Shown: positions 11,034-31,154 of the stretch, piece by piece | Layout: each line of letters opens with the position of its first letter | How positions within the stretch are numbered: position 1 is the stretch's first letter | From: Candidatus Oceanisphaera merdipullorum | Lineage (GTDB): Bacteria; Pseudomonadota; Gammaproteobacteria; Enterobacterales; Aeromonadaceae | Direction: 5' to 3' | Length of the DNA: 34,630 bases | Assembly: GCA_018883865.1 (NCBI GenBank) | Contig: JAHLFI010000080.1 | Span: forward strand, 1 to 34,630 | Notes under the pieces: model-generated | Database searches by the model: none | Seen by the model: the letters and a program-made list of their open reading frames with translations, nothing else | What the model was told of the DNA's origin: nothing | Position numbers and translations under genes: made by a program

Positions 11034-11129
11034 GGAAAGTAATCGCATCCGGTGGTGCGGCTGGGCTTCAAACCCAGTTGGGGGCGTTAGACGTTCCCGG
11101 GTAGGTTCGACTCCTACTACTTTCCGCCA
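11034..11129 (+). tRNA. selC: tRNA-Sec (anticodon TCA)
   Basis: This 96-nt tRNA with encoded CCA has an 8-bp acceptor stem (GGAAAGTA with TACTTTCC) and an anticodon stem CTGGG/CCCAG with loop CTTCAAA, placing anticodon TCA at 11068-11070. A long variable arm and T-arm GGTTCGACTCC follow. The 8-bp acceptor and long extra arm are the marks of bacterial tRNA-Sec, and the sequence parallels E. coli selC. It lies 74 bp after selB and 35 bp before fdhD. tRNA-Sec genes are common integration sites, but no duplicated end is visible here. Confidence 0.97.
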
Positions 11130-11965: not shown

Positions 11966-11989
11966 AGGAAAACTTGTTTGCAGGAAAAC

Positions 11990-13174: not shown

Positions 13175-13248
13175 GCTGTTCGGCGTAAAGTCATTGAGCT
13201 TACTGGGCTTATGTTTATTGAACTGGCATTTACTGGGCTTAAGTTAAG

Positions 13249-14049
13249 TTACTGACCTGCCATTACCCAAATCAGCACGGCGCCTAAGCCTAAGCGATAC
13301 AGCACAAACGGCAGCACACCGATACGCTCCAGCAAAGCCAAAAACAGATGGATACAGGCCAAGGCACTGAGAAACGACACCAAGATGCCGAGGCCCATCG
13401 CCGACCAAGAAATAGCAACTGGGCTACTCAGCAAGCCCACCGCCTGATGGCTACCGGCTAACAATATGATGGGGATCGACATCAGAAAGGAGAAACGGGC
13501 GGCGGCGCTACGCGTTAGGCCTAACATTAACCCCGCCGTTAAGGTAATGCCGCTGCGCGAGGTGCCAGGGATCAACGCCACCGCTTGTGCAAGCCCGAGA
13601 AAAAAGGCGCCCCGCCAACCAGTTTGATATTCACTCTTCAGGTGTTGCGCGCGTTTATCTGCCCACCATAACAACAAACCAAACACTATGGTGGCGATGG
13701 CGATCACCCAACCCGAGCGTAAAAACTCACCAATAAAGCCGCCAAACAAACCCCCGATAATACAAGCCGGAATAGTGGCTAATATAATGCACCAGGCTAA
13801 GCGCGATTCGGCGGTGGCGGCGCGCCCTGCTAACGAGCCAACCCAAGCATGAGCCAAGCTCAGCACTTCTTGACGAAAGTAGTATAACACCGCCAATAAG
13901 CTACCCAAGTGCACGGCCACATCAAAGGCTATGCCTTGGTCTGGCCAGCCCAATAACACCGAAGGTAAGATCAAATGTGCAGAGCTTGAGATCGGTAAAA
14001 ATTCGGTAAAGCCTTGGACCAACGCCAGTAATATAGCGTGTACTTCCAT
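13249..14049 (-). CDS. uppP: Undecaprenyl-diphosphatase UppP/BacA
   Basis: This integral membrane phosphatase recycles undecaprenyl diphosphate for peptidoglycan and other cell-wall polymers; overexpression gives bacitracin resistance. The two family motifs are present: QGFTEFLPISSSAHL near the N-terminus and IPGTSRSGITLTAG in the middle, with about eight hydrophobic segments. The 266-residue length is typical. It is downstream of folB on the same strand and converges with cca. Confidence 0.95.
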   Translation of the reverse strand: MEVHAILLALVQGFTEFLPISSSAHLILPSVLLGWPDQGIAFDVAVHLGSLLAVLYYFRQEVLSLAHAWVGSLAGRAATAESRLAWCIILATIPACIIGGLFGGFIGEFLRSGWVIAIATIVFGLLLWWADKRAQHLKSEYQTGWRGAFFLGLAQAVALIPGTSRSGITLTAGLMLGLTRSAAARFSFLMSIPIILLAGSHQAVGLLSSPVAISWSAMGLGILVSFLSALACIHLFLALLERIGVLPFVLYRLGLGAVLIWVMAGQ

Positions 14050-14138
14050 CTAATTAACTCTCTTAGCTAATACTGGCTGCATGCTAATCAATCCAGATGA
14101 CAATTTAATGACGTTTACTGGTGATGTATTAGCGAGCG

Positions 14139-14495
14139 TTATACTTTACGGGTTCTTAATATCTCTACGCCCACACCGGCGGCATTCACTACCGCATTAG
14201 GCTTAGTGAGGCGTACTTTTACAAACTGCACGGCAAACAGGCTGAATATCAGCTCGGCCACCCGCTCGGCCATGGTTTCGATCAGTTCAAAATGATTAAG
14301 CTGTGCGAATTCCATCACCGCTTGTGACAAAGTCGCATAATCAAGCGCCTTACTAAGGTCATCATCTTTGGCTGCCGGCGCATTATTAAAGCCCATCTCC
14401 AGATCGAAGCTGAGCTTTTGTTTAATGCCCTTTTCCCAGTCATACACGCCTATGGTCGTGAACACTTCCAGACCTTCTACAAACACTTTATCCAT
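14139..14495 (-). CDS. folB: Dihydroneopterin aldolase FolB
   Basis: FolB splits dihydroneopterin to 6-hydroxymethyl-dihydropterin in folate synthesis. The 118-residue protein starts MDKVFVEGLEVFTTIGVYDWE, carries the conserved TIGVYDWE pterin-site segment, a Tyr in DYATLSQ and the ELIETMAERVAELI helix. AGAGAG lies just before the ATG. It is divergent from plsY and followed by uppP, the same order as in E. coli. Confidence 0.93.
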   Translation of the reverse strand: MDKVFVEGLEVFTTIGVYDWEKGIKQKLSFDLEMGFNNAPAAKDDDLSKALDYATLSQAVMEFAQLNHFELIETMAERVAELIFSLFAVQFVKVRLTKPNAVVNAAGVGVEILRTRKV

Positions 14496-14632
14496 CGTCT
14501 CTCTCTTCTGTTAAGCTGAACTATATTCGGAATCGAGCAGCGCTTGCGGCAAAGAAGCCTTTGACTGCGCTCGGTTTAAGCTCGCATAGTAAGGGGCCAT
14601 AGTAACGGATTGACCCCGAGGTATAAACCGCA

Positions 14633-15247
14633 ATGACGGCCCTCATTTTCTTTATGATAGTGCTCGCCTACCTGGGGGGATCCATCTCCAGCGCCGTGCT
14701 GATCTCCAGACTCTATGGCCTGCCCGACCCACGCCAACATGGCTCCGGCAATCCGGGCGCCACCAATGTGCTGCGCAGCGGTAATCGCAGTGCCGCGGTC
14801 TGGGTGCTGTTAATCGATATTATGAAAGGGACTCTGCCGGTCTATTTAGGCTGGTATCTGGATATCGGCCCCTTGTACTTGGCCTTTATCGGCATGGCCG
14901 CCTGCTTGGGCCATATGTTTCCGCTGTTCTTTCACTTTCGGGGGGGCAAAGCGGTGGCGACGGCACTGGGTACACTATTACCGCTCGGCATGGACATGGC
15001 CGGCCTGATGATGCTGACCTGGCTGGTGTGCCTAGGCCTGTTTGGTTATTCGTCGTTGGCCTCTTTACTGACCGCCTTAGTAGCCCCGCTGTATGTCTAT
15101 TTCATTAAGCCCGAATACACGCTCTCGGTGTCGTTACTGTCTTGCCTCATTATCTTGCGCCATCACGGCAACATCAGCCGCCTCTATCACCGCCAAGAAA
15201 AGCCGATGCTTGATAGATTTAAGCGGGAAGAAAAAGACAGGGAGTAG
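14633..15247 (+). CDS. plsY: Glycerol-3-phosphate acyltransferase PlsY
   Basis: This inner-membrane enzyme acylates glycerol-3-phosphate using acyl-phosphate, the first step of phospholipid synthesis. The conserved motifs [15 protein letters not shown], the [10 protein letters not shown] and [18 protein letters not shown] loops, and the late [10 protein letters not shown] are all visible, with about five membrane segments. Length 204 is normal. Its tail is charged and probably cytoplasmic. Confidence 0.95.
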
Positions 15248-15300
15248 CGTCCTAGCCTAGCTTAAAACTAAGAACCAAACTTTTGCCACCACATTCACAA

Positions 15301-15332
15301 AAAAGCCCCGAACCTGTAGGTTCGGGGCTTTT
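15301..15332. terminator. Bidirectional terminator between plsY and tsaD
   Basis: AAAAGCCCCGAACC (15301-15314) pairs perfectly with GGTTCGGGGCTTTT (15319-15332) around the loop TGTA. The A-tract on one side and T-tract on the other serve both convergent genes. Confidence 0.93.
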
Positions 15333-15373
15333 GTCGTGTTGGCACCGTCATTAATCTTTAACTGGCGCTGTTC

Positions 15374-16399
15374 TTATACCGCCGTAAGCTCGTCTAATGG
15401 CCAGCGTGGTCGTGCGCGTACTGCGAGCGGCTCAACATCACCGGCTTTTAAGCGCTGCAGCCCGGCGAAGGCGATCATGGCGCCATTATCGGTGCAATAT
15501 TCATTACGCGGATAAAAGGCTTCGCCCTTTAGGCTTGCCATCAGCTCGCTGAGCTGCTCACGGAGCGACACGTTAGCACTCACGCCACCGGCCACGACTA
15601 ACCGATTCAAGCCCGTCTGCAGCAGCGCCCGTTTACACTTAATAGCCAGCGTATCCACTACCGCCTGTTGAAAAGCATGGGCGATATCGGCGCGAGTTTG
15701 CTGATCGTAAGTATCGGCGGCAATTTCTGCAGCTATGGTAGTCGCAGTGGCGGTCTTAAGACCAGAAAAGCTAAAGTCTAAGCCCGGCTTGGCGGTCATA
15801 GGTCGCGGGAAGACAAAGCGATTCGGTGTGCCCAGCTCTGCCAGCTTGGCTAAACGTGGGCCACCTGGATAATCTAAATCCATCAGCTTGGCGGTTTTAT
15901 CGAAGGCTTCACCGGCCGCATCATCTACTGACTCGCCTAAGATTTCGTAGCAGCCAATGCCATCTACGCGTACCAATAAGGTGTGGCCGCCGGAGACTAA
16001 CAAAGCCACAAACGGAAACTCAGGCGCGCGCTCTTCTAGCATAGGGGCCAGCAAGTGGCCTTCCATATGATGCACAGCCACCGCCGGTTTACCCCAAGCA
16101 AAGGCGAGGCTGCGGCCTATGGTCGCGCCCACTAATAAAGCCCCCATTAAACCGGGGCCGGCGGTAAAGGCCACGCCGTCTATGTCGTCTTTGGTGCAGC
16201 CCGCATCTTTCAAGGCGGCTTCAATCAAAGGGATGGTTTTACGAATGTGGTCGCGGCTCGCCAGTTCAGGCACCACGCCACCATAGTCCGCATGCAGCGC
16301 CACCTGACTGTAGAGTTGATGGGCCATGATGCCGAGTTGGTCGTCATAAATAGCAATGCCGGTTTCATCACAGGAGGTTTCTATACCCAATACACGCAT
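15374..16399 (-). CDS. tsaD: tRNA N6-threonylcarbamoyladenosine synthase TsaD
   Basis: TsaD is the catalytic Kae1/YgjD-family subunit that transfers threonylcarbamoyl to A37 of ANN-decoding tRNAs, working with TsaB, TsaC and TsaE. It shows [14 protein letters not shown] at the start, metal ligands His111 and His115 in [10 protein letters not shown], the LVSGGHTLL loop and the [12 protein letters not shown] motif. Length is 341 residues. It is divergent from rpsU, as in E. coli. It modifies tRNA-Ile2, among others encoded here. Confidence 0.96.
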
Positions 16400-21465: not shown

Positions 21466-21542
21466 GGCCCCTTAGCTCAGTTGGTTAGAGCACACGACTC
21501 ATAATCGTTAGGTCCCCAGTTCAAGTCTGGGAGGGGCCACCA
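21466..21542 (+). tRNA. ileX: tRNA-Ile2 (anticodon CAT, read as lysidine)
   Basis: This 77-nt tRNA with encoded CCA has acceptor GGCCCCT / AGGGGCC and anticodon loop CTCATAA. The sequence follows E. coli ileX closely (GGCCCCTTAGCTCAGT start), so the CAT anticodon is the isoleucine type whose C34 is changed to lysidine by TilS to read AUA, not a methionine tRNA. It sits after rpoD as in E. coli. Its 3' 46 bases are repeated at 31065-31110, showing that it is the integration site of the element to the right; the gene itself was kept intact by the insertion. Confidence 0.93.
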
Positions 21543-21586
21543 TATACAGCAAGGGTTAGCAGGTTAATACCTGCTAACCCTTTTTT
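21497..21586 (+). repeat. attL: 90-bp direct repeat (tRNA-Ile2 3' part + terminator)
   Basis: The repeat begins at ACTCATAATCG in the anticodon arm and runs to the T-tract of the terminator. The first 53 bases match attR perfectly; beyond that there are two C/T differences (21550 vs 31118, 21570 vs 31138). The crossover is most likely in the perfect part. Confidence 0.93.
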
Positions 21587-21587
21587 T
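21551..21587 (+). terminator. tRNA-Ile2 terminator
   Basis: GGGTTAGCAGGT (21553-21564) and ACCTGCTAACCC (21569-21580) form a perfect 12-bp stem with a TAAT loop, followed by seven T. It lies eight bases after the tRNA and is duplicated at attR. Confidence 0.93.
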
Positions 21588-21588
21588 C

Positions 21589-21608
21589 TGTGCCGCCTAT
21601 GTGCCGCT
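21589..21608 (+). repeat. Left integrase arm-type repeats (TGTGCCGCY x2)
   Basis: TGTGCCGCC (21589-21597) and TGTGCCGCT (21600-21608) lie directly after attL, 11 bp apart start to start. The same pair inside an identical ~26-bp segment occurs near attR (30901-30926). Repeats of this type beside att cores are normally bound by the integrase N-terminal arm-binding domain. Confidence 0.7.
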
Positions 21609-22310
21609 TTGCGGCGGGATAGTTAGGTAACAACAGCGCACACGTTTAAGTAAAGCTGCCTTGTTTGGTAAGCCTCTAGCGCCAGCCTGCAACGATAAGC
21701 CCCACTGTTTAGCCCTGCCTAATACTGACCTCTTAAATCGGCGTGTAAACCGCACTGCCATAGCGCCAGCCCTTGCCCTGCATGGCTTACAAACCCGCGC
21801 CTAACTCCGCGCCAGCAATAACAACGGGCAGCCCTGACACTGAACCGCCAAAGGTAAGCGGAACAATCCGTTCACCTAACGAACGGAATAATTCGTTCGT
21901 CTTAAAGTGTTCCCCATATTTAGGGTGTGGCGGTGAGTGTAGCGGGTGCGGTTGTGTAGCCCCTGCTCGGTGGCGGCTGGGCTGGGCTTCTAGCTGTTTA
22001 GGTGTGGCGGGTGGTGTAGTGGCCAAGCAACAACCAACCACAAAGCCGCGCTCTGGCGCTCGACCATCAATAAAGAACTAAGCGCAACTGTGCGCCCAGT
22101 TCATAACGGCCGCAAAGTTACGGGCGTTAGTTTGCGATATGTTCTCAAGGGCGGCTTTCCGCCTTTGGCTGTTAAGTTAACAAGGCAAAACTTAACAAGT
22201 AAAAAGTTAACAAGTCGCTTAAAAGAGGATTAAATCTCTAAATGTGAGAAGGTGGGGTTTCCGTGATTGCTAACAAAATACTTTCGACACCCCCCCTCCC
22301 TTGTGAGCAT
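21609..22310. other. Left-end region of the element without a convincing gene
   Basis: About 700 bp separate attL from the capsid gene. Overlapping open frames exist on both strands (21773-22081 plus, 21787-22041 minus) but neither has a good RBS or a recognisable product. The region does hold structure: nested inverted repeats at 21868-21900 (CCGTTC/GAACGG and ACGAACG/CGTTCGT) and three TTAACAAG repeats at 15-bp spacing. Confidence 0.5.
22177..22214 (+). repeat. Three TTAACAAG repeats with 15-bp period
   Basis: TTAACAAG occurs at 22177-22184, 22192-22199 and 22207-22214, exactly 15 bp apart, with A-rich spacers. The regular period suggests a protein-binding array; its role is unknown. Confidence 0.7.
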
Positions 22311-22332
22311 AAAAAAGGCGGCCAATGCCGCC
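22311..22332 (-). terminator. Terminator of the capsid gene
   Basis: Read on the minus strand, GGCGGC pairs with GCCGCC around ATTG and is followed by six T. It lies seven bases after the capsid stop codon. Confidence 0.85.
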
Positions 22333-22338
22333 TATACC

Positions 22339-23481
22339 TTAAACTTTAATCGCAAGCAGCTTGATACATTCAGAGTTAACCACGTCACCGCCGACTCGCT
22401 CTGTTGCGTAGAAGTTTACGTAAGGTTTGCTTGTGTATGGATCACGCAATAGACGAACACCAGTGCGGCGAGCAATGTAGTAACCACGCTGAAAGTTACC
22501 AAACATAACAGGGTAAGCACTCGCTGCAATGTCTGGCATGTTTTCATCAATCTCAACTGGATAGCCGAACAGTGTGTCAGGCTCGCCCGCCGTGGCTGAC
22601 TCACTCCAGATGTAGTCCCCAGCTCCGTTTTTGAGCTTTGACAGCACGCTGGCTGTCGTATCATTCATCACCCAGGCCGCCCCAGTGCGGTACTTAGCAC
22701 GCAATGCTGATTTGAGGTTCTTCAAGTCGTCAAAGTCAACTAGGCCGGATAATACAGTTTCAACAGATTGCAAGGAACCAAAGGCACGGACATCGTCTTT
22801 TTCAGCCGTCACCGTCTTGGATAGGATTCCAGTGGGCTTATTCAAACCGTCGCCGTTAATCAATGCCGCGCCCAATTGGTCGGCAAACTCACTAGTAATC
22901 TCCTCACCGATAAACATTTCAGCATCAAACATCGCATCATCAAGCATAGCTTGGGTCAGCTTAGGATTGGCATACAGCTCACCAACCGTAATATTGATAG
23001 AAGCTAACTTGGGTGTGCCTGTTTCTGGCCGGGCATCTGTTTCACCTACCCAACCAGACGCGGTACCGTGCAGGTTAACCAGCTTTTTAAAAGCAGGTCC
23101 AGGTGTTAAAACAGTGCGGGCAAGGCGAACAATTGCGGAAGCGTCCTTTTCGGTGCTCTCCACTTCACGATCAAGATATTCTGGTACCGCATAACCACCA
23201 TCTGATGGATCATCCCCAATCGACATCGATTTGCTCTGTAACTCGGACAGCCCTGATGTGTCACCTTTCGTTATGAATACGCGTAAAGCGTCCTTTTGCA
23301 CTCGCTCGGCAGTGCCGTGGGCGCTATAGCCGGCAAGACTAGGTCGCTTGAGGCTGGCCAACCCTAATAATTCTTTTTCAATCAGCGCGTATCGATCTTC
23401 GTGTTGCGCTTTAAAGTCCGTAAATTTCTGGCTTAGCTGTACGGCTACTTCTTTAATTTCTTCTTTAACTTCGTTAGACAT
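22339..23481 (-). CDS. HK97-family phage major capsid protein
   Basis: This 380-residue protein has the HK97 major-capsid layout. A charged, helical N-terminal delta-like domain (residues ~1-90) precedes the SDGGYAVPEYLD segment. The GWVGETDARPETGTP motif follows at ~143, with the LYANPKLTQAMLDDA and FADQLGAALINGDGLNKPTG blocks after it. The FGYPVEIDENMPD, FGNFQRGYYIARRTGV and FYATERVGGDVV blocks near the end are also family hallmarks. I chose ATG 23481 because AAGGTG lies six bases upstream; an in-frame GTG at 23490 overlaps that RBS. It is complete and undamaged. No protease gene is nearby, so removal of the delta domain, if it occurs, would need a helper phage. It is the only recognisable structural gene in the element. 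Confidence 0.93.
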   Translation of the reverse strand: MSNEVKEEIKEVAVQLSQKFTDFKAQHEDRYALIEKELLGLASLKRPSLAGYSAHGTAERVQKDALRVFITKGDTSGLSELQSKSMSIGDDPSDGGYAVPEYLDREVESTEKDASAIVRLARTVLTPGPAFKKLVNLHGTASGWVGETDARPETGTPKLASINITVGELYANPKLTQAMLDDAMFDAEMFIGEEITSEFADQLGAALINGDGLNKPTGILSKTVTAEKDDVRAFGSLQSVETVLSGLVDFDDLKNLKSALRAKYRTGAAWVMNDTTASVLSKLKNGAGDYIWSESATAGEPDTLFGYPVEIDENMPDIAASAYPVMFGNFQRGYYIARRTGVRLLRDPYTSKPYVNFYATERVGGDVVNSECIKLLAIKV

Positions 23482-23725
23482 AGGTTGCACCTTATTAACA
23501 AGTGGTTAGGTTTATAGTTTCTTGATCTGCTCTGACCTCACGCCGAGCTAAATCAAGTGGATTGCGACCTCTCGCCGCGCCTCCTAAATTAGTTAGGGGC
23601 TGGCCACACCGTCCCAGTGTTACCCCTATGCCTTGTCCAGATTTAGGGCTGAACTCCCGTTGAGTTCACGTTAAGGATCAATACAATCCTGCGCGGCCCC
23701 TTAACGCTTAGAGCAACTCGAGCCC
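23482..23725 (-). other. Structured 244-bp leader upstream of the capsid gene
   Basis: No ORF fits here. Several features are visible: a perfect 7-bp hairpin TGAACTC/GAGTTCA (23650-23668), a second short hairpin AGGAT/ATCCT near 23675-23690, and a 12-bp direct repeat GACCTCWCGCCG at 23534-23545 and 23566-23577. The second copy overlaps GCGACCTCTCGC, a short dyad. Possible roles are a regulated leader RNA or a packaging/terminase site. Confidence 0.5.
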
Positions 23726-23869
23726 TCAATCACTCCCGCGCTTTTTTATACCATCCAAGTCACGATAAGCTCTGGCCAGAATTTTGGCTTCTTTACCGCT
23801 GAACCCTCTTGAACGCAAAAAAACTTCGTACTCTCGCACCGTATTTATTTTATCCCGCGGCGTGCTCAC
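23726..23869 (-). CDS. Small phage-type protein next to the capsid gene (47 aa)
   Basis: This short gene starts at GTG 23869, overlapping the stop of the upstream ORF (GTGA), which implies coupling. The product contains VREYEVFLRSRGFSGKEAKI and ends LDGIKKRGSD. Short proteins with a similar LR..GFS..EAK pattern are often encoded beside HK97-type protease and capsid genes in tailed phages; their role is not known to me. Its presence suggests the capsid module came from a phage head operon that lost portal and protease. Confidence 0.6.
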   Translation of the reverse strand: MSTPRDKINTVREYEVFLRSRGFSGKEAKILARAYRDLDGIKKRGSD

Positions 23870-24171
23870 TTGTTTTCAGGTAGCTGCTTTGATTTAGGAT
23901 TCTGCTTGCGGATTTCTTCAAGTATCGATTGTTTAGGATCGCCAAGCTCTCCGCACCATCCACCATGCCCGGGCAAATTAATTATTCCTGAGTCAATGTG
24001 CTCCTTAATTTCTTTGGAAAGTGCTTCTTGGTTTGTAATGATTAAAATACCCACCATGGCGTTAACGTCACCCGCATCAGCAGCCGCACGAATTTTCTTC
24101 ATATAATCACGTTGATCCGCCTTGCTAGGCATGATGTTTTTTCCTTCTCTCCCGGCCTTAATGTTTTGCAT
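23866..24171 (-). CDS. Hypothetical protein upstream of the capsid module (101 aa)
   Basis: I do not recognise this protein. It is soluble, with a charged N-terminal half (PSKADQRDYMKKIRAAADAG) and a C-terminal IINLPGHGGWCGELGD stretch rich in glycine. I chose ATG 24171, behind AGGAC; a second ATG at 24132 behind AAGGA would give 88 residues and is equally plausible. It is the first gene of the capsid module and is coupled to the 47-aa gene. Given its position it could be a head-assembly or size factor, but nothing in the sequence proves that. Confidence 0.6.
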   Translation of the reverse strand: MQNIKAGREGKNIMPSKADQRDYMKKIRAAADAGDVNAMVGILIITNQEALSKEIKEHIDSGIINLPGHGGWCGELGDPKQSILEEIRKQNPKSKQLPENK

Positions 24172-24787
24172 GTTGCTTGTCCTGTTTATGTTTGAGTAAA
24201 GCCATATAATCACACGCACATGTAAAAATCAAATCTCCGATGAATCTCCGGCTAATCTTCGAAACAAAGCATAAGCTAAAATGGCTAATCATTAGCAGGA
24301 TTAGCTAATAAGTCGGTGAGTATATCGAGCCGCCAATTTTTCGGCCGTTAGCCATGGCGATCCGTGCTGACCTTTACGGCTTTAGTAAAAGGTTTACAGT
24401 TTTGGGGAATGTTTCCCTGTTTTGGGGAAAGGTTAAGGGGTGCGCCACTGGCGTATACCCATGACGCAATTTTGCTTCATGTAGAAGGCTGGCTAACTTC
24501 CTGCAATGCAGGGAGCAGCAGATTACCGCCTCCTAGCTCAACATTCCCCACTGGGGGAAGTTAACCAGGTGATTTTTAAGCACTGCTCAAAATTGAGCTG
24601 AGTTAGGTGGGCACTACAAAAGCTTTGTATTGGGCAAGCTGGTCCTACTTACTAAAAGGTACATTTTAGTAAGTAGGGGTGTTACTGGGAATTGCGCGAC
24701 ATGATCAATGAAGTTCTGGTAGGCAAACGAAAACTTTTCGACACCCACAAAGCCGCTCTCATTATAAATACTCATAAAACTATACAT
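24172..24787. other. Non-coding stretch between capsid module and origin
   Basis: About 600 bp with no convincing gene. It contains GTTTTGGGGAA twice (24399-24409, 24419-24429), an 11-bp inverted pair TGGGGAATGTT / AACATTCCCCA (24403-24413 and 24540-24550), and the perfect inverted repeat at 24644-24677. It probably carries the promoter of the capsid module, reading left. Confidence 0.5.
24644..24677. repeat. Perfect 14-bp inverted repeat
   Basis: CCTACTTACTAAAA (24644-24657) and TTTTAGTAAGTAGG (24664-24677) are perfect complements around the 6-base spacer GGTACA. It has no T-tract directly after it, so it is not a classical terminator. Position near the origin suggests a regulatory or cruciform site. 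Confidence 0.8.
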
Positions 24788-25000
24788 ACTGTACACCAGC
24801 CTTAAAACCTCATTAATTTCAACTAGTTAAGGTGTGTATAGTTTGGCTTGGACTGTACACCAACTATACACCGTGGTGTACACCTCCCCTTAAAGGGTGA
24901 ACAGTGGTGTACAGTAGGTGTATAGTTTTAAGTAAACTATACACCCTATAAGCATCTGTTTTAATTGACTTTAATTAACTGGTGTATAGTGGTGTATAGT
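24788..25000. repeat. Replication origin iterons, GGTGTAYAGT type (about 10 copies, both orientations)
   Basis: Forward copies are at 24896-24905 (GGTGAACAGT), 24906-24915, 24917-24926, 24981-24990 and 24991-25000, plus a 9/10 copy at 24833-24842. Inverted copies (ACTRTACACC) are at 24788-24797, 24852-24861, 24863-24872 and 24936-24945. A palindromic GGTGTACACC is at 24875-24884. An AT-rich stretch (24955-24980) lies among them. Satellite P4 alpha protein binds GGTGAACAG(T/A) iterons, and the gene ending 20 bp away encodes an alpha-type protein, so this is very probably its origin. Confidence 0.88.
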
Positions 25001-25019
25001 TTTCAGGGTAATCTAATTT

Positions 25020-26822
25020 TTAGGGGGGGCCACCAGCCGCACAAATCCAGTCAACGGCCGTATCTTCGTTTAGATCTAGGTTCGTCCGCATGCCGTGCTT
25101 GGTTCTCAGCTTAATGTACCTAGCCCCGAACTCAGCCATGGCGTAAGGCATCGCTTTACCGAATGCCGTTAAACTTAAAGGCCGCTGGTGTGCCATGCCT
25201 GCCATAAAAGTTAGGTATGCGTGATACAAGAACCGCCTTGGTGCCATCGGGCTAATATTGGCATTGCCCACATATAAGCCATCTGTCTGGGTTGAAGCGA
25301 TCAAGTAAGAGCAAAAATCTACCAGGCTATCAGCCTCCCTTTTGATTTCTAGCGCCTCGGCTGACTTCTGTTGTGCTAAAAGCTGCTCTTTGGCCAGTTC
25401 AGGCACCGCAAAGTGACTCAGTAAATGGCGAATGATCACCGGTAGCTCTTTAGCTATCTTGCTGATCAGCAGGGTATCGCGTTCCGCTTCTGGTACCGCC
25501 TCACTAAAGTTAAAAATTACCCGCCGCCGTGATATACCGCCCGACCGATCACTAAAGGCCATAGGGTTATTGTTCACGGCCAATATGACCGCCGGTATCC
25601 GTATCGAGTAAGGCGGTTTGTGTTTGGGGTCAACCATTACCGAATCGCCGCCTGTAATAGCCTTTAGCCCTGCCCCGTCCCCCATATAGCGCGGCTGATC
25701 TGGCAGTATCGCCAATGAGTAGCCCACCAGCGCCGATCGCTCTCTCGCATTCTCGATCGCGTCGATAGTTGCCGAGGTAGTATTGCTGGCGCCAGCTAAC
25801 ATAGTGCAAACCTCAGCAAACACACTTTTGCCACTCCCACCGGGGCCCGTCACTTCTAAAAACAGTTGCCAGTCGTACCGGTTCGCCAACACCATAAACA
25901 AAGCGGCCAGAATGCGGTCGTTCTTGGCCGTTCCTATTCCCCTAGCTACACGGTTAAGCCACTGATAAAAATTAGGGGCATCTTTCGCTAAACTTTCATC
26001 TGCCACGGCTTCGACATAATCCACATCTAGGGAATGCGTTAGCCAGTCAGTTTTATTGTGATTGCGGAAGGTACGATCTGACATATCAAACACGCCATTA
26101 CGAAAACCAATGAGCGCCCGGCTTGGTGATTCCATTACGGGCACCGATAGCCGCATAGTTTCAATAACGGCCGCAATCGCGCCGGCTGAATAGGACGCCT
26201 CGGCTTCTCGATAGAGTTTGGCCAGTTCACGGCGTAACACTTTGTCTGCTATCGGCTGCCAGTCAGCACCGCTGTATAGAAAGAAGTCATCCGAGGCATC
26301 ATCTAGCGCCAGCTCACCGCTATAACGAGCTAACAGCAAATCGGCCTTTTCACTGGCACCCATCGCCTTTAAATCAGCACCACTGAGCGCCGGCTTTGAG
26401 ATAACACCCGCTTGGTTCATGATTTCCACCAGTTCGCCCATAGGCTGCCCATCTTGGAATATTTCGGCGCCTGGCGCTTGTGTGGCAATAACGCCGATCA
26501 ATTCTCTAATATGGGATGCGGACACCGGGCCCTGTAATTCAAGGTAAACGTATTTCGTCGATTCATTTGCTAGCGCCACTCGCCTTAATGCAGGTGGGTC
26601 GGCTAATAGCTTGCTGCCAACGACTAACGGCGGCTGACTATTCATATCACCATCAATAGCGGCTAAAGGGTCACGGTTCCCTGTGGCTTCCATCAGGACA
26701 GCACTGCTACTGAGATTAAAACGCTCCTCGGCGGCCTTCCACGCATTAGGGCCCACAAATATGGTGACGGTGGCCACACTGCCTAACTCACTTAACTGTG
26801 TTGGCTTCCAACTTGGTTTCAT
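25020..26822 (-). CDS. P4-alpha-type SF3 helicase / origin-binding replication protein
   Basis: This 600-residue protein has a P4-family SF3 helicase core: Walker A TGPGGSGKS (~325-333), Walker B in LAILPDQPR (~370-378), motif C ILAVNNNP (~413-420) and the arginine-finger region GGISRRRVIF. The C-terminal ~100 residues (RRFLYHAYLTFMAGMAHQRP ... RTKHGMRTNLDL) match the winged-helix domain that binds iterons in P4 alpha. The N-terminal third shows no zinc-binding or Toprim-type primase motif, and the protein is shorter than the 777-residue P4 alpha, so host primase or a diverged N-terminal primase is needed. Its ATG overlaps the upstream stop (ATGA). Confidence 0.88.
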   Translation of the reverse strand: MKPSWKPTQLSELGSVATVTIFVGPNAWKAAEERFNLSSSAVLMEATGNRDPLAAIDGDMNSQPPLVVGSKLLADPPALRRVALANESTKYVYLELQGPVSASHIRELIGVIATQAPGAEIFQDGQPMGELVEIMNQAGVISKPALSGADLKAMGASEKADLLLARYSGELALDDASDDFFLYSGADWQPIADKVLRRELAKLYREAEASYSAGAIAAVIETMRLSVPVMESPSRALIGFRNGVFDMSDRTFRNHNKTDWLTHSLDVDYVEAVADESLAKDAPNFYQWLNRVARGIGTAKNDRILAALFMVLANRYDWQLFLEVTGPGGSGKSVFAEVCTMLAGASNTTSATIDAIENARERSALVGYSLAILPDQPRYMGDGAGLKAITGGDSVMVDPKHKPPYSIRIPAVILAVNNNPMAFSDRSGGISRRRVIFNFSEAVPEAERDTLLISKIAKELPVIIRHLLSHFAVPELAKEQLLAQQKSAEALEIKREADSLVDFCSYLIASTQTDGLYVGNANISPMAPRRFLYHAYLTFMAGMAHQRPLSLTAFGKAMPYAMAEFGARYIKLRTKHGMRTNLDLNEDTAVDWICAAGGPP

Positions 26823-27079
26823 GCGCTAGCCTCCTGCGTAATGCCAAACAGGCGCAAAGACTCGGCGCCATTCCAGCTAGTAGCCTGCTTAAGCTCTGGC
26901 GCTGTCCGACAAATGCCGATATTAAAAAGAACGGCTTTAGGTTTGCAGTTTGCGCCAGCAAAAGCGGCTCGGGTTTCATCCATGATCTGGTCTTGGGTCA
27001 GGCTGGTGATAAAAGGGCCGGTCATTAGGTCCGCATTGTCCAGATCAACGGCATGAATAAAAAAGGTGATTTGGTTCAT
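26819..27079 (-). CDS. Hypothetical protein coupled to the replication gene (86 aa)
   Basis: I cannot name this family. The protein starts MNQITFFIHAVDLDNADLMT and looks like a small alpha/beta fold without membrane segments. It has a good RBS (GAGGTGAGC) and is coupled at both ends by ATGA overlaps, with the 58-aa gene upstream and the helicase gene downstream. This tight packing argues for a real gene working with replication. Confidence 0.7.
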   Translation of the reverse strand: MNQITFFIHAVDLDNADLMTGPFITSLTQDQIMDETRAAFAGANCKPKAVLFNIGICRTAPELKQATSWNGAESLRLFGITQEASA

Positions 27080-27252
27080 GAGCTCACCTCCTGCGCCGGG
27101 CTACGGCTCACGAACACCAGAGAGCCAGCGCCGGCAATAGAGCGGGCCTCATGCTCGGTGCCAGCCAGTACGGTAATAAAGCGGATTTTCTGCATAGCGG
27201 CGATCCGCTGCTTGCCTTGGGCAAGGACAAAGGTAAACTTATTGATAGCCAT
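27076..27252 (-). CDS. Hypothetical small protein (58 aa)
   Basis: The protein starts MAINKFTFVLAQGKQRIAAM and is basic at its N-terminal half. I do not recognise it. A longer open frame reaches to 27639 but runs antisense through the ribbon-helix-helix gene, so the ATG at 27252 is preferred. It overlaps the next gene by ATGA and is first in the 58aa-86aa-helicase operon. The operators at 27346-27388 lie upstream of it. Confidence 0.65.
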   Translation of the reverse strand: MAINKFTFVLAQGKQRIAAMQKIRFITVLAGTEHEARSIAGAGSLVFVSRSPAQEVSS

Positions 27253-27283
27253 GTTCGTTACTCTCTTAACGGTTGTGGTTAGA

Positions 27284-27314
27284 AGCCCGGTTAGTGCTCG
27301 AACACTGCCGGGCT
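27284..27314. promoter_or_regulatory. Hairpin in leader of the replication operon
   Basis: AGCCCGG (27284-27290) pairs with CCGGGCT (27308-27314), with an inner AGTG/CACT pair. It sits in the leftward leader, 30 bp before the 58-aa gene, and has no T-tract on that side. It may be an attenuator or RNA-control site. Confidence 0.4.
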
Positions 27315-27345
27315 TTGCTGTTTCTTGAGGTGTTTTACAAGTACA

Positions 27346-27388
27346 ATGGTACTTACCATGTCGGCCATTATGTTTAAGGGTAATTACC
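27346..27388. promoter_or_regulatory. Two palindromic operators GGTAnnTACC
   Basis: ATGGTACTTACCAT (27346-27359) and GGTAATTACC (27379-27388) share the core GGTA-NN-TACC. Their cores start 31 bp apart, about three helical turns, so they face the same side of the DNA. The second ends at the base before the ATG of the ribbon-helix-helix gene and covers its RBS. Both lie between that gene and the divergent replication operon, so they probably bind the encoded protein and control both directions. Confidence 0.7.
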
Positions 27389-27562
27389 ATGTCAACACCA
27401 AAAGAGAAGCGATCACCACAATACCAAATGCGCTTACCTGAAGAATTTAGAGCGCAATTAGAGGAACAAGCCAAAACTGATGGAGATCCCACTCTCGCGG
27501 CTTGGATAAAAAGAGTGCTGCGTAAAGAGCTGCAAGCTAGAGGAGTAGAACCCAAAGGCTGA
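27389..27562 (+). CDS. Arc/Mnt-like ribbon-helix-helix DNA-binding protein (57 aa)
   Basis: The product runs MSTPKEKRSPQYQMRLPEEF, then RAQLEEQAKTDG, and ends LQARGVEPKG. The QYQMRLPEEFRAQLEEQA segment is the typical beta strand plus helix A of Arc-type ribbon-helix-helix repressors, with alternating Gln/Gln/Arg residues for base contact. It is the only plus-strand gene in the element, divergent from the replication operon, and has operators directly ahead of it (AAGGG as RBS lies within the second operator). I infer an autoregulated repressor of replication. P4 and related elements use other types of regulators at this place. Confidence 0.78.
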   Translation: MSTPKEKRSPQYQMRLPEEFRAQLEEQAKTDGDPTLAAWIKRVLRKELQARGVEPKG

Positions 27563-27659
27563 TGGTCTCCGCCAGCCATTACCCTGTTTTCAGGCAAGCC
27601 GATCCCCTGAGCATGTCGCCCATGAATAAAATATGTCATTGGTTGGTATCTCTGAGGGG

Positions 27660-28118
27660 TTAAGCCGTTAAGCCGGTGACTGGTGGATATGGCGCAATAA
27701 GCCGGGCAACTTCCGCCAGTTCTAATACTGGCGCTTTGCGTTTCTGGCGCATCTGACTAATTAACCCCGCCAACCGCTCGGCATCGTGGCGATTGGCCAC
27801 ACGGTAACGGTAATGGCTGCCTATGCCGTCAGAATTTCCCACCGCTTCACGGTTAAGCCTGATATTTAGGGTGCGCTCTGCCTTGCTGGCATAGTTCCGA
27901 CCGGAAGACAGGCGGCAATGCCTGAGAATATCGCCTTCTGTCACGCCGTTAGGCCATGACAAAAGCAGCAAGTAGGCTCGTTCGGTTTTAGTGGCTGGCT
28001 TATAGCCGATTGGCTGGCGCTGGTGGTAGGTGCTACACTCGGTAGCGTTATTGTTGTGCTGTGTCATTTGAGGGGCTTGAACCTGTGCCGGGTTCAAGCC
28101 CTTTTTGTTTGCTGTCAT
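27660..28118 (-). CDS. Winged-helix-like protein downstream of alpA (152 aa)
   Basis: I do not recognise a named family. After a polar, Gln/Asn-rich N-terminus the region around TERAYLLLLSWPNGVTEGDI and ILRHCRLSSGRNYASKAERT reads like a helix-turn-helix with a wing (IGSHYRYRVANRHDAERLAGLI). A basic segment (QMRQKRKAP) and a hydrophobic end follow. ATG 28118 with GGGGG eight bases upstream is the likely start; an earlier start would lie inside alpA. It probably binds DNA and is in one operon with alpA (16-bp gap). Confidence 0.65.
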   Translation of the reverse strand: MTANKKGLNPAQVQAPQMTQHNNNATECSTYHQRQPIGYKPATKTERAYLLLLSWPNGVTEGDILRHCRLSSGRNYASKAERTLNIRLNREAVGNSDGIGSHYRYRVANRHDAERLAGLISQMRQKRKAPVLELAEVARLIAPYPPVTGLTA

Positions 28119-28134
28119 GCTGTGAACCCCCGCC

Positions 28135-28383
28135 TTAAACTGACTGCGTGCCGCTTTGCCCATCGAGCCAAGTATCAAGATCGGCTTTCATATAAATAGC
28201 CTTATTGCCGCAACGGTGATATTTCAGACTATAGCGGCCAGAGCTGGCCCAGTTAGCTAAGGTTCTTTCGGCCAACCCTAAATAAGCGGCGGCCTCTTTG
28301 CGGGTAAAGCGTGGGTTAGCGTCCAGTTCGGCGGCCAAGCGGTGGTTAAATATTGGTTGCTGGTGGCGCATGGTGACTTGCAT
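28135..28383 (-). CDS. AlpA-type / excisionase-like HTH regulator
   Basis: This 82-residue protein has a MerR/HTH_17-like helix-turn-helix: RFTRKEAAAYLGLAERTLAN with WASSGRYSLKYHRCGNKAIY and then KADLDTWL. Proteins of this type (AlpA, excisionases) switch on satellite and prophage excision or expression. The ATG at 28383 has AGGGG seven bases ahead, located in one arm of an inverted repeat (28386-28418). It lies just left of the integrase operon. Confidence 0.82.
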   Translation of the reverse strand: MQVTMRHQQPIFNHRLAAELDANPRFTRKEAAAYLGLAERTLANWASSGRYSLKYHRCGNKAIYMKADLDTWLDGQSGTQSV

Positions 28384-28385
28384 GT

Positions 28386-28418
28386 AATACCCCTGTCATT
28401 CAGTGAATACGGGGTATT
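28386..28418 (-). promoter_or_regulatory. Inverted repeat covering the alpA ribosome binding site
   Basis: AATACCCC (28386-28393) and GGGGTATT (28411-28418) are perfect 8-bp complements 17 bases apart. In the alpA mRNA the RBS GGGG is in one arm, so a hairpin would hide it. As DNA the pair could also be an operator. Confidence 0.6.
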
Positions 28419-28495
28419 TTCAGGGGGAAGGCTTGGGGATTCTATCGATAACAAAAAGAAGATTTTTATATGCAATCTCGTCTTTATTAAAATCT

Positions 28496-28523
28496 ATGTA
28501 AATTCAAAAATTTGAAATTACAT
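28496..28523. promoter_or_regulatory. 28-bp near-perfect AT-rich palindrome
   Basis: ATGTAA-a-TTCAAA-aa-TTTGAA-a-TTACAT: both 6-bp half-site pairs are perfect and the only breaks are the single bases between them and the centre. It lies between the integrase/DUF6387 genes and alpA, upstream of alpA, and may be an operator for either, or a weak terminator for the integrase operon. Confidence 0.65.
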
Positions 28524-28538
28524 ATAAATCTAGTTGCT

Positions 28539-29444
28539 TCATTTTATATACAGCGCCATGTTATCTGACATTTTTCGATCATATTGCTCTGGATTATTAT
28601 CAAGATAGGTTTTAAATGCCCTTTCGTGACCATTATCTCTAATAGTTTTAATTCCGCGCCGCAATGTCTGCATAACACTACTGCGTAGGGAGTCAGGAAA
28701 AAGAGTTCTCTCAAGTAATGCCTGAGTAATTTTTGCCCCCTCTAAGAGCTCCCATATCATCAAATCCATTGCAGGTATCAGACAATCACTCATGATCTTA
28801 GGCAAAGTGCTTTCACCAACTCTTGGCTTTTCAAAGACCGGCTCGGGAATGCTCAATTGTTTACGCCACTTGGGCAGCAAATTTTTTAAATTAGCTAGAA
28901 TCTCTTCATCAGTGGATTCATCTAGCAAAATAGTCGCAATAACATCACAGGCTGTATCGTCTTCATTTACGGGTATCGATACGCTAGAAAGTATAAAATC
29001 AGAACGAATAAGTAAATCATCATAGCGATCTATAGACCCCTGCTCGAGAAAAGAAGATGGATCGGCTTTATAAATTCCATTCCTCCTTGCTTGGGCATCC
29101 ATCATCCATAGTTCCGCATAATACAGAGGCATTATACTGTCACTTTGGTTTAGCCGTGGTCTATCGCCATTTTGCGTCTTATCTTCATGGGGAATGTGGT
29201 AGCCGATACCGCCTTTGATAACAACCTCTCCTGATAGTATTTCATCTATGTAGTCCCCACATTCAGCACCGCCATCGTCATCAACGCCGTAAAGCTCCAG
29301 CATTAAAAGCGTAAACTTTCGGATTTCCATCTGCTCTAAAAATTCTCGTCCTGTCAAATCTAACAACGCTTGGTATTTCTCTAATTGAAACCATGGAGGG
29401 AGCAGTTCGGGACTGTTGATTCGCTTGGTCATCTGGGTATCCAT
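28539..29444 (-). CDS. DUF6387-like protein encoded beside the integrase (301 aa)
   Basis: The protein starts MDTQMTKRINSPELLPPWFQ and continues LEKYQALLDLTG. This N-terminus resembles the DUF6387 family of unknown function, commonly found directly downstream of integrases in proteobacterial islands. The rest is acidic and mostly helical, with no membrane segment or catalytic motif I can identify. It starts two bases after the integrase stop, so the two are co-transcribed. The family assignment is from memory and not certain. Confidence 0.6.
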   Translation of the reverse strand: MDTQMTKRINSPELLPPWFQLEKYQALLDLTGREFLEQMEIRKFTLLMLELYGVDDDGGAECGDYIDEILSGEVVIKGGIGYHIPHEDKTQNGDRPRLNQSDSIMPLYYAELWMMDAQARRNGIYKADPSSFLEQGSIDRYDDLLIRSDFILSSVSIPVNEDDTACDVIATILLDESTDEEILANLKNLLPKWRKQLSIPEPVFEKPRVGESTLPKIMSDCLIPAMDLMIWELLEGAKITQALLERTLFPDSLRSSVMQTLRRGIKTIRDNGHERAFKTYLDNNPEQYDRKMSDNMALYIK

Positions 29445-29446
29445 TA

Positions 29447-30835
29447 TTATTTATTATGATCGCTGGCGGTATCGCCGTTAATTTTGGCAGCTAACTCAAA
29501 CAACAGGCGGCGTTTACTATCCTCGTCTAAATCGCTAACCAATGCCGCCAACTGCCCATCAATCGCACTTTCTGGCCTAGCTATAAGGCCCGCATGTTCT
29601 AAAATAGCCCGCTCTATCCGCTCGGCTGGTTCTCTTAACTCGTCAGCACTAAAAGACAAATAACCCTCGGTCACATCGTCGCGCTTGCTCTTATGGTTCA
29701 TTAGCCGCTTTAGAATATAAGTCCCCACGCCTGCCAGCTCTGCAACACTGCCAAAGGTACGGCGGGCATCGTGGCAATTAAAAGCAATGGGGGCTAAGCC
29801 GTGTGGGTTAGGAACAGGCACAGTCTGGACGCTTATCCGGCTTATGGTTTTTCTCGGTTCTTGAATGGGCTTGGTATTGTTAGAGTTCGGGAACACATAG
29901 GCGCTAGTTATGCCACACACATTCCACCGGCGGCGAAAAAGCGTTAACAGGCTATCTGTGATCGGCAGTTCCAACGGGTCGCCGTTTTTGGTTTCCTCTA
30001 TCCAAAAATACCGCCCCCCAAGGCTTACCCGGTCCCACGTTAGGCCGAACACTTCGGAACGCCGCAAGCCAGTAAACACCGCAAGATCTAAAGCGTCACA
30101 AATAGCCGCCCTCGTATCTTCTCTATTCGCCATTGCCTCACTGCGCACCTGCTCAACGGCGGCCAGCCAGCGACCTAGATCATGGTTTCTTATTCGGCTG
30201 GTTTTACGGGATACGTTGTTCCATTGCCGTTTGGTTGATAACACCATGGTCGGCGGGTCTGGTAGTAGGGTTCTGCCCTCTTCGTCGCGGTAGTGGTCAT
30301 GGGCAAAGCGATAAACAGCCCGTAAAGAGCGCCCCCATAGATCCGCCTGCGCTTTACTTGGCTTGCGCATATTTACGGCTTGGCCGTCTTGGTTGGTCCA
30401 GCTTATGCGGCCCTCGCTTATTGCTTGGTGCCGTTGCTGTACTCGCTCCCGTGTAATGTTGCGCAAGGGCTGGCGCATCCACTCTTGGGAATAATTACCA
30501 AGGGCTGACCTATATTGGTTGCCGGTAGTGGCTTTAATGCGATCCCCTCGGCTGGCTATGTATTCCTCTAATGCGCTGGACAAGGTGATATTGGCTTGAT
30601 TTTGGTTGCGCCGCTCTTGGTTAGGGTGCTGACCTTGCGCCATTTGGGTGCGCACTTCGGCTGCTTTATCTCTCGCCATGATGGGGGATAGGTCGGGGAA
30701 CGGGCCAAGAGTCACTGTAATATCTTTACCCTTAACCTTGCGGCGTAACCGGTAGAACTTATCGCCGGTTGGCATCACTTCAACAAACAGCCCTTTGGTT
30801 TGCGGATCAGGGTATCGGGTGCGCTTATCAGGCAC
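29447..30835 (-). CDS. int: Tyrosine recombinase (P4-like integrase), native 5' end frameshifted
   Basis: The catalytic domain is complete: Arg in FTGLRRSEVFGLTW, Lys in EETKNGDP, HDARRTF, and the nucleophile Tyr in EGYLSF after LMNHKSKRDD. The N-terminal arm-binding domain (DUF4102 type) begins PDKRTRYPDPQTKGLFVEVM. The only in-frame start available is GTG 30835, at V-P-D-K. The normal beginning of such proteins, FTKAGIK-A-LPVPDKR, is present upstream but in another frame (see 30840-30882). It is the rightmost gene, ~230 bp from attR, and reads inward. It may be inactive, or start at the GTG, or be a sequencing error. Confidence 0.88.
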   Translation of the reverse strand: MPDKRTRYPDPQTKGLFVEVMPTGDKFYRLRRKVKGKDITVTLGPFPDLSPIMARDKAAEVRTQMAQGQHPNQERRNQNQANITLSSALEEYIASRGDRIKATTGNQYRSALGNYSQEWMRQPLRNITRERVQQRHQAISEGRISWTNQDGQAVNMRKPSKAQADLWGRSLRAVYRFAHDHYRDEEGRTLLPDPPTMVLSTKRQWNNVSRKTSRIRNHDLGRWLAAVEQVRSEAMANREDTRAAICDALDLAVFTGLRRSEVFGLTWDRVSLGGRYFWIEETKNGDPLELPITDSLLTLFRRRWNVCGITSAYVFPNSNNTKPIQEPRKTISRISVQTVPVPNPHGLAPIAFNCHDARRTFGSVAELAGVGTYILKRLMNHKSKRDDVTEGYLSFSADELREPAERIERAILEHAGLIARPESAIDGQLAALVSDLDEDSKRRLLFELAAKINGDTASDHNK

Positions 30836-30839
30836 GGGT

Positions 30840-30882
30840 AGGCTTTTATACCCGCTTTGGTGAACTCAAAAGGTACTTTCAT
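30840..30882 (-). pseudogene. Displaced 5' end of int (one-base frameshift)
   Basis: From ATG 30882 the frame reads MKVPFEFTKAGIKA and then goes out of frame (YPCLISAP). If one C were added to GCC-TACCC, making GCC-CTA-CCC, the sequence would read MKVPFEFTKAGIKALPVPDKRT and run straight into the integrase. This is the expected start of the family. The ATG has a TGTGCCGCT arm-type repeat three bases upstream and no strong RBS. Confidence 0.75.
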
Positions 30883-30884
30883 AT

Positions 30885-30955
30885 TGTGCCGCTTACCCCG
30901 TTTCTGTGCCGCCTATGTGCCGCTTTAAAAAGTCCTGTGCCGCTATTGTGCCGCT
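30885..30955. repeat. Right integrase arm-type repeats (TGTGCCGCT x5)
   Basis: Copies begin at 30885, 30905, 30916, 30936 and 30947 (nine bases each; one ends in C). Start-to-start spacing is 20, 11, 20, 11. They cover the int promoter region. The middle pair lies in a 26-bp segment identical to one beside attL. Confidence 0.75.
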
Positions 30956-31064
30956 TTTTGGGAGTTATTCGGGCTAATGCTGGCGCTCGCTAGGTAACTA
31001 TAAGGACATGATATATATAGAGTTAGTGAGCATCAAGGAGCAACGGGTAATATATAAGCGGGTA

Positions 31065-31154
31065 ACTCATAATCGTTAGGTCCCCAGTTCAAGTCTGGGA
31101 GGGGCCACCATATACAGTAAGGGTTAGCAGGTTAATATCTGCTAACCCTTTTTT
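31065..31154 (+). repeat. attR: 90-bp direct repeat with partial tRNA-Ile2 copy
   Basis: The copy starts in the anticodon arm (ACTCATAATC) and includes the T-arm, acceptor 3' strand, CCA and the whole terminator hairpin. It is 88/90 identical to attL. It cannot make a tRNA because the 5' 31 bases are missing. Confidence 0.93.

Follow-up and report, generated by a model that had tools for sequence, protein, structure and literature searches.

A capsid-gene cassette that recurs in four otherwise unrelated satellite-like elements, one of them in Candidatus Oceanisphaera merdipullorum

The 34,630-nucleotide contig JAHLFI010000080.1 of Candidatus Oceanisphaera merdipullorum (the window, meaning this whole stretch) carries an integrated satellite-like element of ~9.6 kb at 21497–31154, in which an intact HK97-type major capsid gene is preceded by two open reading frames (ORFs), orf117 and orf47, and by a covarying RNA. 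These four parts form one block that recurs in four otherwise unrelated elements, the other carriers being L171 (Halopseudomonas aestusnigri), L172 (Pseudomonas psychrophila HA-4) and L004 (a viral contig). An initial annotation of the window had found the capsid gene and overlooked the rest of this cassette. No report of the cassette or the RNA was met in a literature search that most subscription journals lay outside; a capsid gene without a full head gene set is not new, and its membership of such a cassette looks new.

At the nucleotide level the window element resembled L004, L171 and L172 only within 22355–24147, from orf117 to the capsid gene, and the backbones were unrelated, with different replication genes and insertion sites. 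L171 encodes Toprim and DUF3987 proteins and ends at a tRNA-Ser with a 14-bp repeat, L172 has a 62-bp attachment (att) repeat at a tRNA-Arg and no helicase among the ORFs scanned, and L004 encodes a serine recombinase, a Replicase-family protein and a small-terminase-like protein (Terminase_4, 1.1e-4, 23.0 bits, below the cut-off of 24.7). Although their other genes differ, the four elements span 9568, 9745, 9853 and ~10361 bases, the last figure being that of L004 and representing the spacing of a 95% terminal repeat of its contig. In L172 (~9.7 kb) a 959-residue lambda-type tape-measure protein is encoded directly downstream of the capsid gene (11312–14191), and this element thus holds both a shell protein and a tail ruler; tape measure aside, no tail gene was recognised there. 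Homologues of orf117 lie upstream of each capsid gene (46, 28 and 18% identical to that of the window in L172, L171 and L004, respectively), while the best match in the other fetched loci reached only E 0.07. orf47 is present in all four elements, and the two genes overlap or touch at their stop and start codons. Assignment of orf117 as a NaeI restriction endonuclease was disbelieved (17.9 bits against a cut-off of 25; PADLOC REase_II, E 0.008), and its predicted structure was set aside at a predicted local distance difference test score (pLDDT) of 57.

Close relatives of the capsid are few. A search of 84,980 genomes with two 7-residue patterns, of which the best 80 of 92 confirmed relatives were kept, returned two capsids 71 and 69% identical to that of the window, with the next at 50% or below. 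In three scans of IMG/VR, L004 (71%) was the sole close capsid among the matches listed (the best 80 in two of the scans). No match of at least 60% identity was present among 587 phage records or 203 plasmid records with a capsid match, and the other 74 sampled genomes of the family held no close capsid, with weak matches (24–32% identity) in 6. Ten of 398 sampled Pseudomonadaceae genomes matched at E 1e-80 (two known members, and eight scoring half as high); three of 369 sampled genomes of the class matched, one being the window's own and the others below 290 bits; and in 37 genomes sampled from the genus of the Halopseudomonas member the single match was the member itself.

In a FastTree phylogeny of 176 capsids, which retains a few near-duplicates, the four formed one clade (support 1.0, stem 0.92). 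With midpoint rooting, the sister group of 149 mixed phages, prophages (Pseudomonas among them) and alphaproteobacterial loci, with a support of 0.85 at the joining node. An origin from gene transfer agents (GTAs) was considered, as many of the nearest capsid matches are sphingomonad loci and the capsid of RcGTA is, with that of EcCI2 (9gyi), the best solved structural match; because the four capsids branch outside the mixed group, no special GTA link was drawn. The capsid gene is under purifying selection. Nei–Gojobori ratios of nonsynonymous to synonymous substitution (dN/dS) were 0.12, 0.19 and 0.22 among L004, L171 and L172 (three pairs, dS 1.0–1.2), far from the value near 1 that the initial annotation had named as a sign of decay; in pairs with the window capsid dS was saturated, and pN/pS was 0.25–0.27. 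The PF05065 match spans residues 98–379, and the N-arm, E-loop and spine-helix regions of the phage relatives are kept. The structure model (pLDDT 76.5, predicted template-modelling score 0.65, low confidence at 47–61, 80–96 and 143–148) has a long N-terminal helix (6–45) in the scaffold region and a spine helix at 190–212. The positions at which the four agree and more than 90% of the other capsids differ include two in the spine helix, L206 and L210, where 98% of the others have E and 94% have F, respectively.

To look for other head genes, profiles for portal, protease, large terminase (TerL), small terminase (TerS) and tape measure were seeded from phages SfIV and VW-6S and from L172 and iterated over the fetched loci; they gave zero matches in the window. 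Pfam and PHROG scans of the ten ORFs of the element likewise revealed no portal, protease, terminase or tail gene, in agreement with the initial annotation. The AlpA-like protein matched a small-terminase PHROG (19 bits, E 0.0017), which was taken as mere helix–turn–helix (HTH) similarity. The TerL profile is weak, giving a match in only 21 of 129 capsid loci, and every ORF of portal or large-terminase size in the window is already assigned. The structural genes recognised in the element are the capsid gene and the protease-tail-like orf47 only, without a complete structural or lysis set. Of 205 loci with a capsid match, 129 have at least 3 kb of upstream sequence (not all independent cases, some being the same contig met in two collections), and a portal was found within 10 kb of the capsid in 123 of them. 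The six without one were the window and its copy L001, the three relatives L004, L171 and L172, and L242, where a protease is present. Thus the possibility raised at the outset, that relatives always carry a full head operon, was not borne out: portal, protease and large terminase were not found in the three relatives with 69–71% capsid identity. Portal matches above the cut-off elsewhere in the genome numbered three in P. psychrophila and zero in Halopseudomonas.

The orf47 profile matched the C-terminal tails of the prohead proteases of two Pseudomonas prophages (E 5e-5 and 2.5e-4); like orf47, each of these proteases is encoded immediately before a capsid gene. Of the 18 matches outside the satellites at E 10 or better, 12 were protease ORFs, some closely related to each other, compared with 185 of 33,194 ORFs overall. 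Alignment of orf47 with 94 protease tails by hhalign gave a probability of 61% (E 8e-5), against 0.6% with whole proteases, while a strict regular-expression motif of orf47 was found in only 2 of 108 proteases. The link between orf47 and proteases rests on those two prophage proteins, the sub-threshold enrichment and the hhalign comparison with tails, and with moderate confidence orf47 may be regarded as a free protease tail without a catalytic domain.

In all four elements orf47 is separated by 235–259 nucleotides from the capsid start, as placed by alignment, and this interval appears to hold a covarying RNA of ~220 nucleotides, which may represent a new RNA family linked to production of the capsid. 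RNAalifold predicted 38 pairs on a MAFFT alignment, and 95.3% of the lettered cells pair. Changes on both sides were seen in 18 pairs, compared with 8.5 in shuffles (none of 500 reached 18) and 2–4 when partners were slid by 1–3 columns. In the 5' helix, 44 of 46 positions pair with their own arm, against 68 of 132 with the arms of the other elements. Wobble pairs outnumbered C–A mismatches by 16 to 2, which points to an RNA of the capsid-coding strand, although prediction of the structure on that strand itself leans that way. Several observations weigh against a structured RNA. An equally long 5' stem arose in 61, 24, 2 and 40 of 500 single-sequence shuffles, folding of the whole stretch beat shuffles only modestly (z −2.8, −1.4, −1.0 and −0.75), and for the core of 115–120 nucleotides z was −1.3, −1.15 and −0.8, with L172 at +1.8, worse than its shuffles; moreover, there are four sequences only, and the structure was drawn from the same alignment. 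An invariant GGGG/CCCC consensus helix has a competitor: when the cores are folded singly, the same C run is taken up by a hairpin in three of the four, and the RNA might switch between two forms.

A covariance model, R1, was built from the window copy and the other three. It found nothing beyond the four elements in 100 sources, only the L172 copy and fragments of 17.9 bits or less in 95 further sources, and only known members in 398, 75 and 369 genomes under strict filters. Rfam gave no match at E 10 in window 23300–23900, nor any at the same place to E 5 in the other three, and an intron between orf47 and the capsid gene was rejected on these searches. A reading of the conserved stretch as a cos site was likewise set aside, there being no phage match to the window or L171 version. 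A 15-mer of the stretch is contained in 75 viral contigs, which look like chance because R1 scores 17.9 bits or less on them. Large gaps upstream of a capsid gene are not unique in themselves, since the protease–capsid gap is at least 140 bases in 27 of 157 loci.

Gram-negative phage-inducible chromosomal islands (PICIs) are laid out as integration, regulation, replication with a 3' iteron origin, and a late zone (PMC6092414, PMC10111431), and the element fits this layout. As in EcCICFT073 and PmCI172, an integrase and an AlpA-type gene stand at one end, transcription runs in one direction, and iterons (24788–25000) lie immediately 3' of the end of the replication gene at 25020, as in the definition of PMC6092414; a complete structural or lysis set, whose absence we read as part of that definition, is lacking. 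These islands also measure at least ~10 kb, often have a capsid gene among their late genes (PMC10111431, PMC6092414), and have been described at tRNA-Ile2 (PMC10111431). The element had initially been proposed as a new, in-between satellite type. This is not supported, as 21 of 29 reference Gram-negative PICIs have a capsid gene but no full head set (PMC10111431) and the capsid homologue Ccm of SaPIbov5, a Staphylococcus aureus pathogenicity island (SaPI), is known to work (PMC8569155). The difference lies in the company of the window capsid, which comes with orf117, orf47 and the RNA in a block shared beyond this backbone; the accessible text of PMC6092414 and PMC10111431 describes no such block for Gram-negative PICIs.

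Like the window element, SaPIbov5 brings one HK97-fold capsid homologue with a delta domain and no protease of its own; this homologue, Ccm, shrinks helper heads, and the helper gives the rest of the head (PMC8569155). However, Ccm lacks the long N-arm, fills pentamers only, needs the helper capsid protein and forms no shells alone (PMC8569155), whereas the window capsid keeps the N-arm region in sequence and is accompanied by a protease-tail-like protein. Capsid-forming PICIs (cf-PICIs), EcCI2 among them, also encode a capsid but are defined by their own portal, protease, connectors and terminases beside it (PMC10690885), none of which was found in the window element. In tape-measure substitution, PLE11 (of the PICI-like elements, PLEs) and some cf-PICIs supply a size-setting particle protein (PMC12987554), to which the tape measure of L172 is comparable; what sets L172 apart is that it pairs this gene with a capsid while lacking portal, protease and terminase. 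Since cf-PICIs with putative tmp genes are shown in the legend of Extended Data Fig. 10 (PMC12987554), a capsid and a tape measure in one satellite are not new.

With regard to replication, the initial label of a P4 alpha-type helicase stands in part: the protein is a D5_N/DUF5906 helicase, and since Pfam and PHROG scans found no primase domain in it, it matches only part of a P4-alpha-like protein. The helicase family of P4 is a related one. P4-like satellites are defined by an alpha protein with primase and helicase, by Psu and by Sid; like the primase domain, a Psu or Sid family was not found among the ten ORFs. P4 resembles the element in its own replication and AlpA-type gene and differs in using the helper capsid protein (PMC11389934, PMC6092414).

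We consider it somewhat probable that the element is a satellite of the Gram-negative PICI type with a capsid-substitution cassette, which would provide a small shell wholly or mostly its own and borrow the rest, and we infer the following mechanism. After helper infection the satellite would excise, replicate and express the cassette late; the capsid protein, with its own scaffold region, would assemble a small shell around the helper portal or form most of the shell; helper protease would trim the capsid, and helper terminase would package satellite DNA (~10 kb) into the shell. The helper would thus contribute portal, protease, terminase and tail, orf47 may modulate docking of the helper protease in the satellite shell, and the RNA may set the amount and timing of capsid protein. 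In HK97-type phages, scaffold and capsid protein are fused. Work on phage D3 produced proheads by expressing such a fused protein either together with portal and protease or in their absence, found hardly any difference between shells that contained a portal and shells that lacked one, and proposed that a scaffold clamp on the backbone helix sets size (PMC12749128); this suggests that a single gene can carry shell size, as a satellite needs. Several points stand against this account. Interference by EcCICFT073 persisted when its capsid gene was deleted (PMC6092414, PMC6893505), and the DNA that was packaged had the size of phage DNA (PMC6092414). The window element showed no recognisable packaging signal, and its host genome no helper with a capsid of this type, the prophage there being P2-like. 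The fit of the capsid model to solved structures is loose (TM 0.57 over the query; root-mean-square deviation 6–13 for the best hits). Finally, phages of 38–40 kb such as SfIV carry the same capsid family (43% identity), so that a small shell does not follow from the family alone. A bolder form of this account, offered tentatively and at rather short of even likelihood, is that orf117, the protease tail, a new class of RNA and the capsid make up a satellite-only mobile kit that moves between unrelated backbones and builds a ~10-kb shell in each, with the RNA playing an active part instead of being a spacer, for instance as a helper-sensing leader or an assembly or packaging RNA, and the tail licensing or limiting the helper protease.

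Of the rival explanations, a mixed shell, in which the satellite subunit takes some positions (e.g. pentamers) in a shell of helper capsid and forces a small size, is unlikely but has a precedent, as Ccm of SaPIbov5 does so with a delta domain and without its own protease (PMC8569155), and the inventory here is the same, one capsid homologue and no portal or protease. A shell of its own, or mostly so, is favoured over this because Ccm lacks the long N-arm and needs helper capsid, forming no shells alone, whereas the window capsid keeps its N-arm and E-loop regions; in addition, no helper carrying a close relative of this capsid was found. It is distinctly unlikely that the capsid gene was picked up from a helper as a passenger or backup late gene that transfer does not require, an idea put forward for the late zones of PICIs. 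Capsid genes of Gram-negative PICIs are indeed reported as not required for transfer, and late zones gain and lose phage genes (PMC10111431), but recent independent captures should yield four different capsids close to local phages, rather than one long-branch clade under purifying selection in four unrelated elements, with two proteins and an RNA alongside. Conservation of the capsid, protease tail and RNA together across these elements argues that the capsid gene is selected.

Pure interference, with the capsid, protease tail and RNA poisoning helper head assembly as a defence and the satellite not being packaged, appears improbable. PLEs and SaPIs do interfere through morphogenesis (PMC12987554, PMC8569155), and a protease tail without its catalytic part could compete with helper protease; however, the small-terminase-like gene of L004 and the tape-measure gene of L172 point to particle building. 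A deleted prophage that kept a capsid gene by chance would explain why orf47 looks like a protease-gene leftover beside the capsid, but the gene order of a Gram-negative PICI, the inward integrase, the satellite-type helicase with iterons and the recurrence of one reduced block across four elements make this very improbable, and the pattern of nucleotide sharing and the three relatives without a head operon also disfavour it. Overall, the data suggest that shell-protein swapping is a repeated strategy. The role of capsid genes in Gram-negative satellites is an open question, that of the PmCI172 gene being undetermined (PMC6092414, PMC6893505), and the cassette addresses it by supplying defined parts for separate dissection, along with a candidate new RNA family.

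The initial annotation had also described a satellite-like element between att repeats with an integrase, an AlpA-like regulator, a helicase and iterons, all of which were confirmed. The features are collected below.

Features of the integrated element (window coordinates)
Feature	Position	Strand	Evidence or remark
attL	21497..21586	+	90-nt direct repeat, 98% identical to attR; overlaps complete tRNA gene
HK97-type major capsid protein with N-terminal scaffold (delta) region	22339..23490	-	PF05065 6.6e-69
Candidate structured RNA	23505..23707	-	between orf47 and capsid gene; covariance model R1 168.6 bits
orf47, protease-tail-like	23726..23869	-	overlaps orf117 stop codon
orf117, first gene of capsid cassette	23866..24219	-	homologues directly upstream of orf47 in L172, L171, L004
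Iteron cluster, probable origin	24788-25000	.	10 copies of GGTGTAYAGT, at most 1 mismatch
Replicative helicase (D5_N/DUF5906)	25020..26822	-	D5_N 1.4e-14, DUF5906, PHROG 864 1.3e-102
orf86, function unassigned, common to L091	26819..27079	-	phmmer 65 bits to L091 9467-9817
orf187, function unassigned, common to L091	27076..27639	-	phmmer 225 bits to L091 9021-9518
orf172, function unassigned, common to L091	27660..28178	-	phmmer 201 bits to L091 8547-9005
AlpA-like regulator/excisionase	28135..28383	-	HTH_17 2.3e-8; PHROG 66 1.3e-7
DUF6387 protein, accessory gene	28539..29444	-	PF19924 6e-32
Tyrosine integrase	29447..30835	-	PF00589 8e-14, PF13356 2e-15
attR	31065..31154	+	other copy of 90-nt repeat

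All ten genes considered lie on the minus strand, and the integrase points inward. The complete tRNA gene overlapped by attL (21466–21542) was called tRNA-Met, anticodon CAT, by ARAGORN; it adjoins rpoD, which we take to make plausible the Ile2 identity given to this CAT tRNA in the initial annotation. Repeats of 26 nucleotides flank both att sites (21585–21610, 30901–30926 and 30932–30957), occur in L091 (described below) too, and are probably integrase arm-binding sites. PHROG 66 is annotated "excisionase and transcriptional regulator", and the AlpA-likeness of the regulator rests on HTH_17 and PHROG 66 only, not on PF05930. An AT-rich stretch separates two groups of iterons; in the whole window the motif, with at most one mismatch, has 13 matches (2.1 expected), 10 of them directly 3' of the helicase gene. 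A match of orf187 to Mrr_cat was disbelieved (17.3 bits, cut-off 21). The DUF6387 gene, for which PADLOC gave no match at E 0.01, adjoins the integrase gene and has homologues in several helicase loci, possibly marking a satellite cargo spot.

A relative of the backbone is that of L091, a 17-kb viral contig, at a tRNA with the same anticodon, in which integrase (81% identical), AlpA-like gene, orf172, orf187, orf86 and helicase (67%) follow the same order. Where the window has the capsid block, L091 encodes a 657-residue ClpP-like protease/capsid fusion (14021–15994; 28 ORF matches among the fetched loci, itself and fragments counted), and nucleotide matches between the two cover integrase, helicase, origin and att, not the capsid block. 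Among the best 80 of at least 596 confirmed helicase loci, 21 have a PF05065-type capsid and 20 of these also a portal; in the remaining one, L113, the contig ends within the capsid gene. G048, of the same genus as the window's genome, has an element with a 72% identical helicase and without the capsid. The window's own genome contains a single copy of the element DNA, two other matches being inverted self-matches inside the element. It also contains a P2-like prophage (G000:C94, L262; 19,939 bases) with a gpO scaffold protease, P2-family capsid, terminases and sheath, which was not argued as the helper because its capsid family differs from that of the satellite. Elsewhere in the window, a SECIS_3 element (2451–2509) and a tRNA-Sec gene (11034–11129) indicate that the host probably uses selenocysteine.

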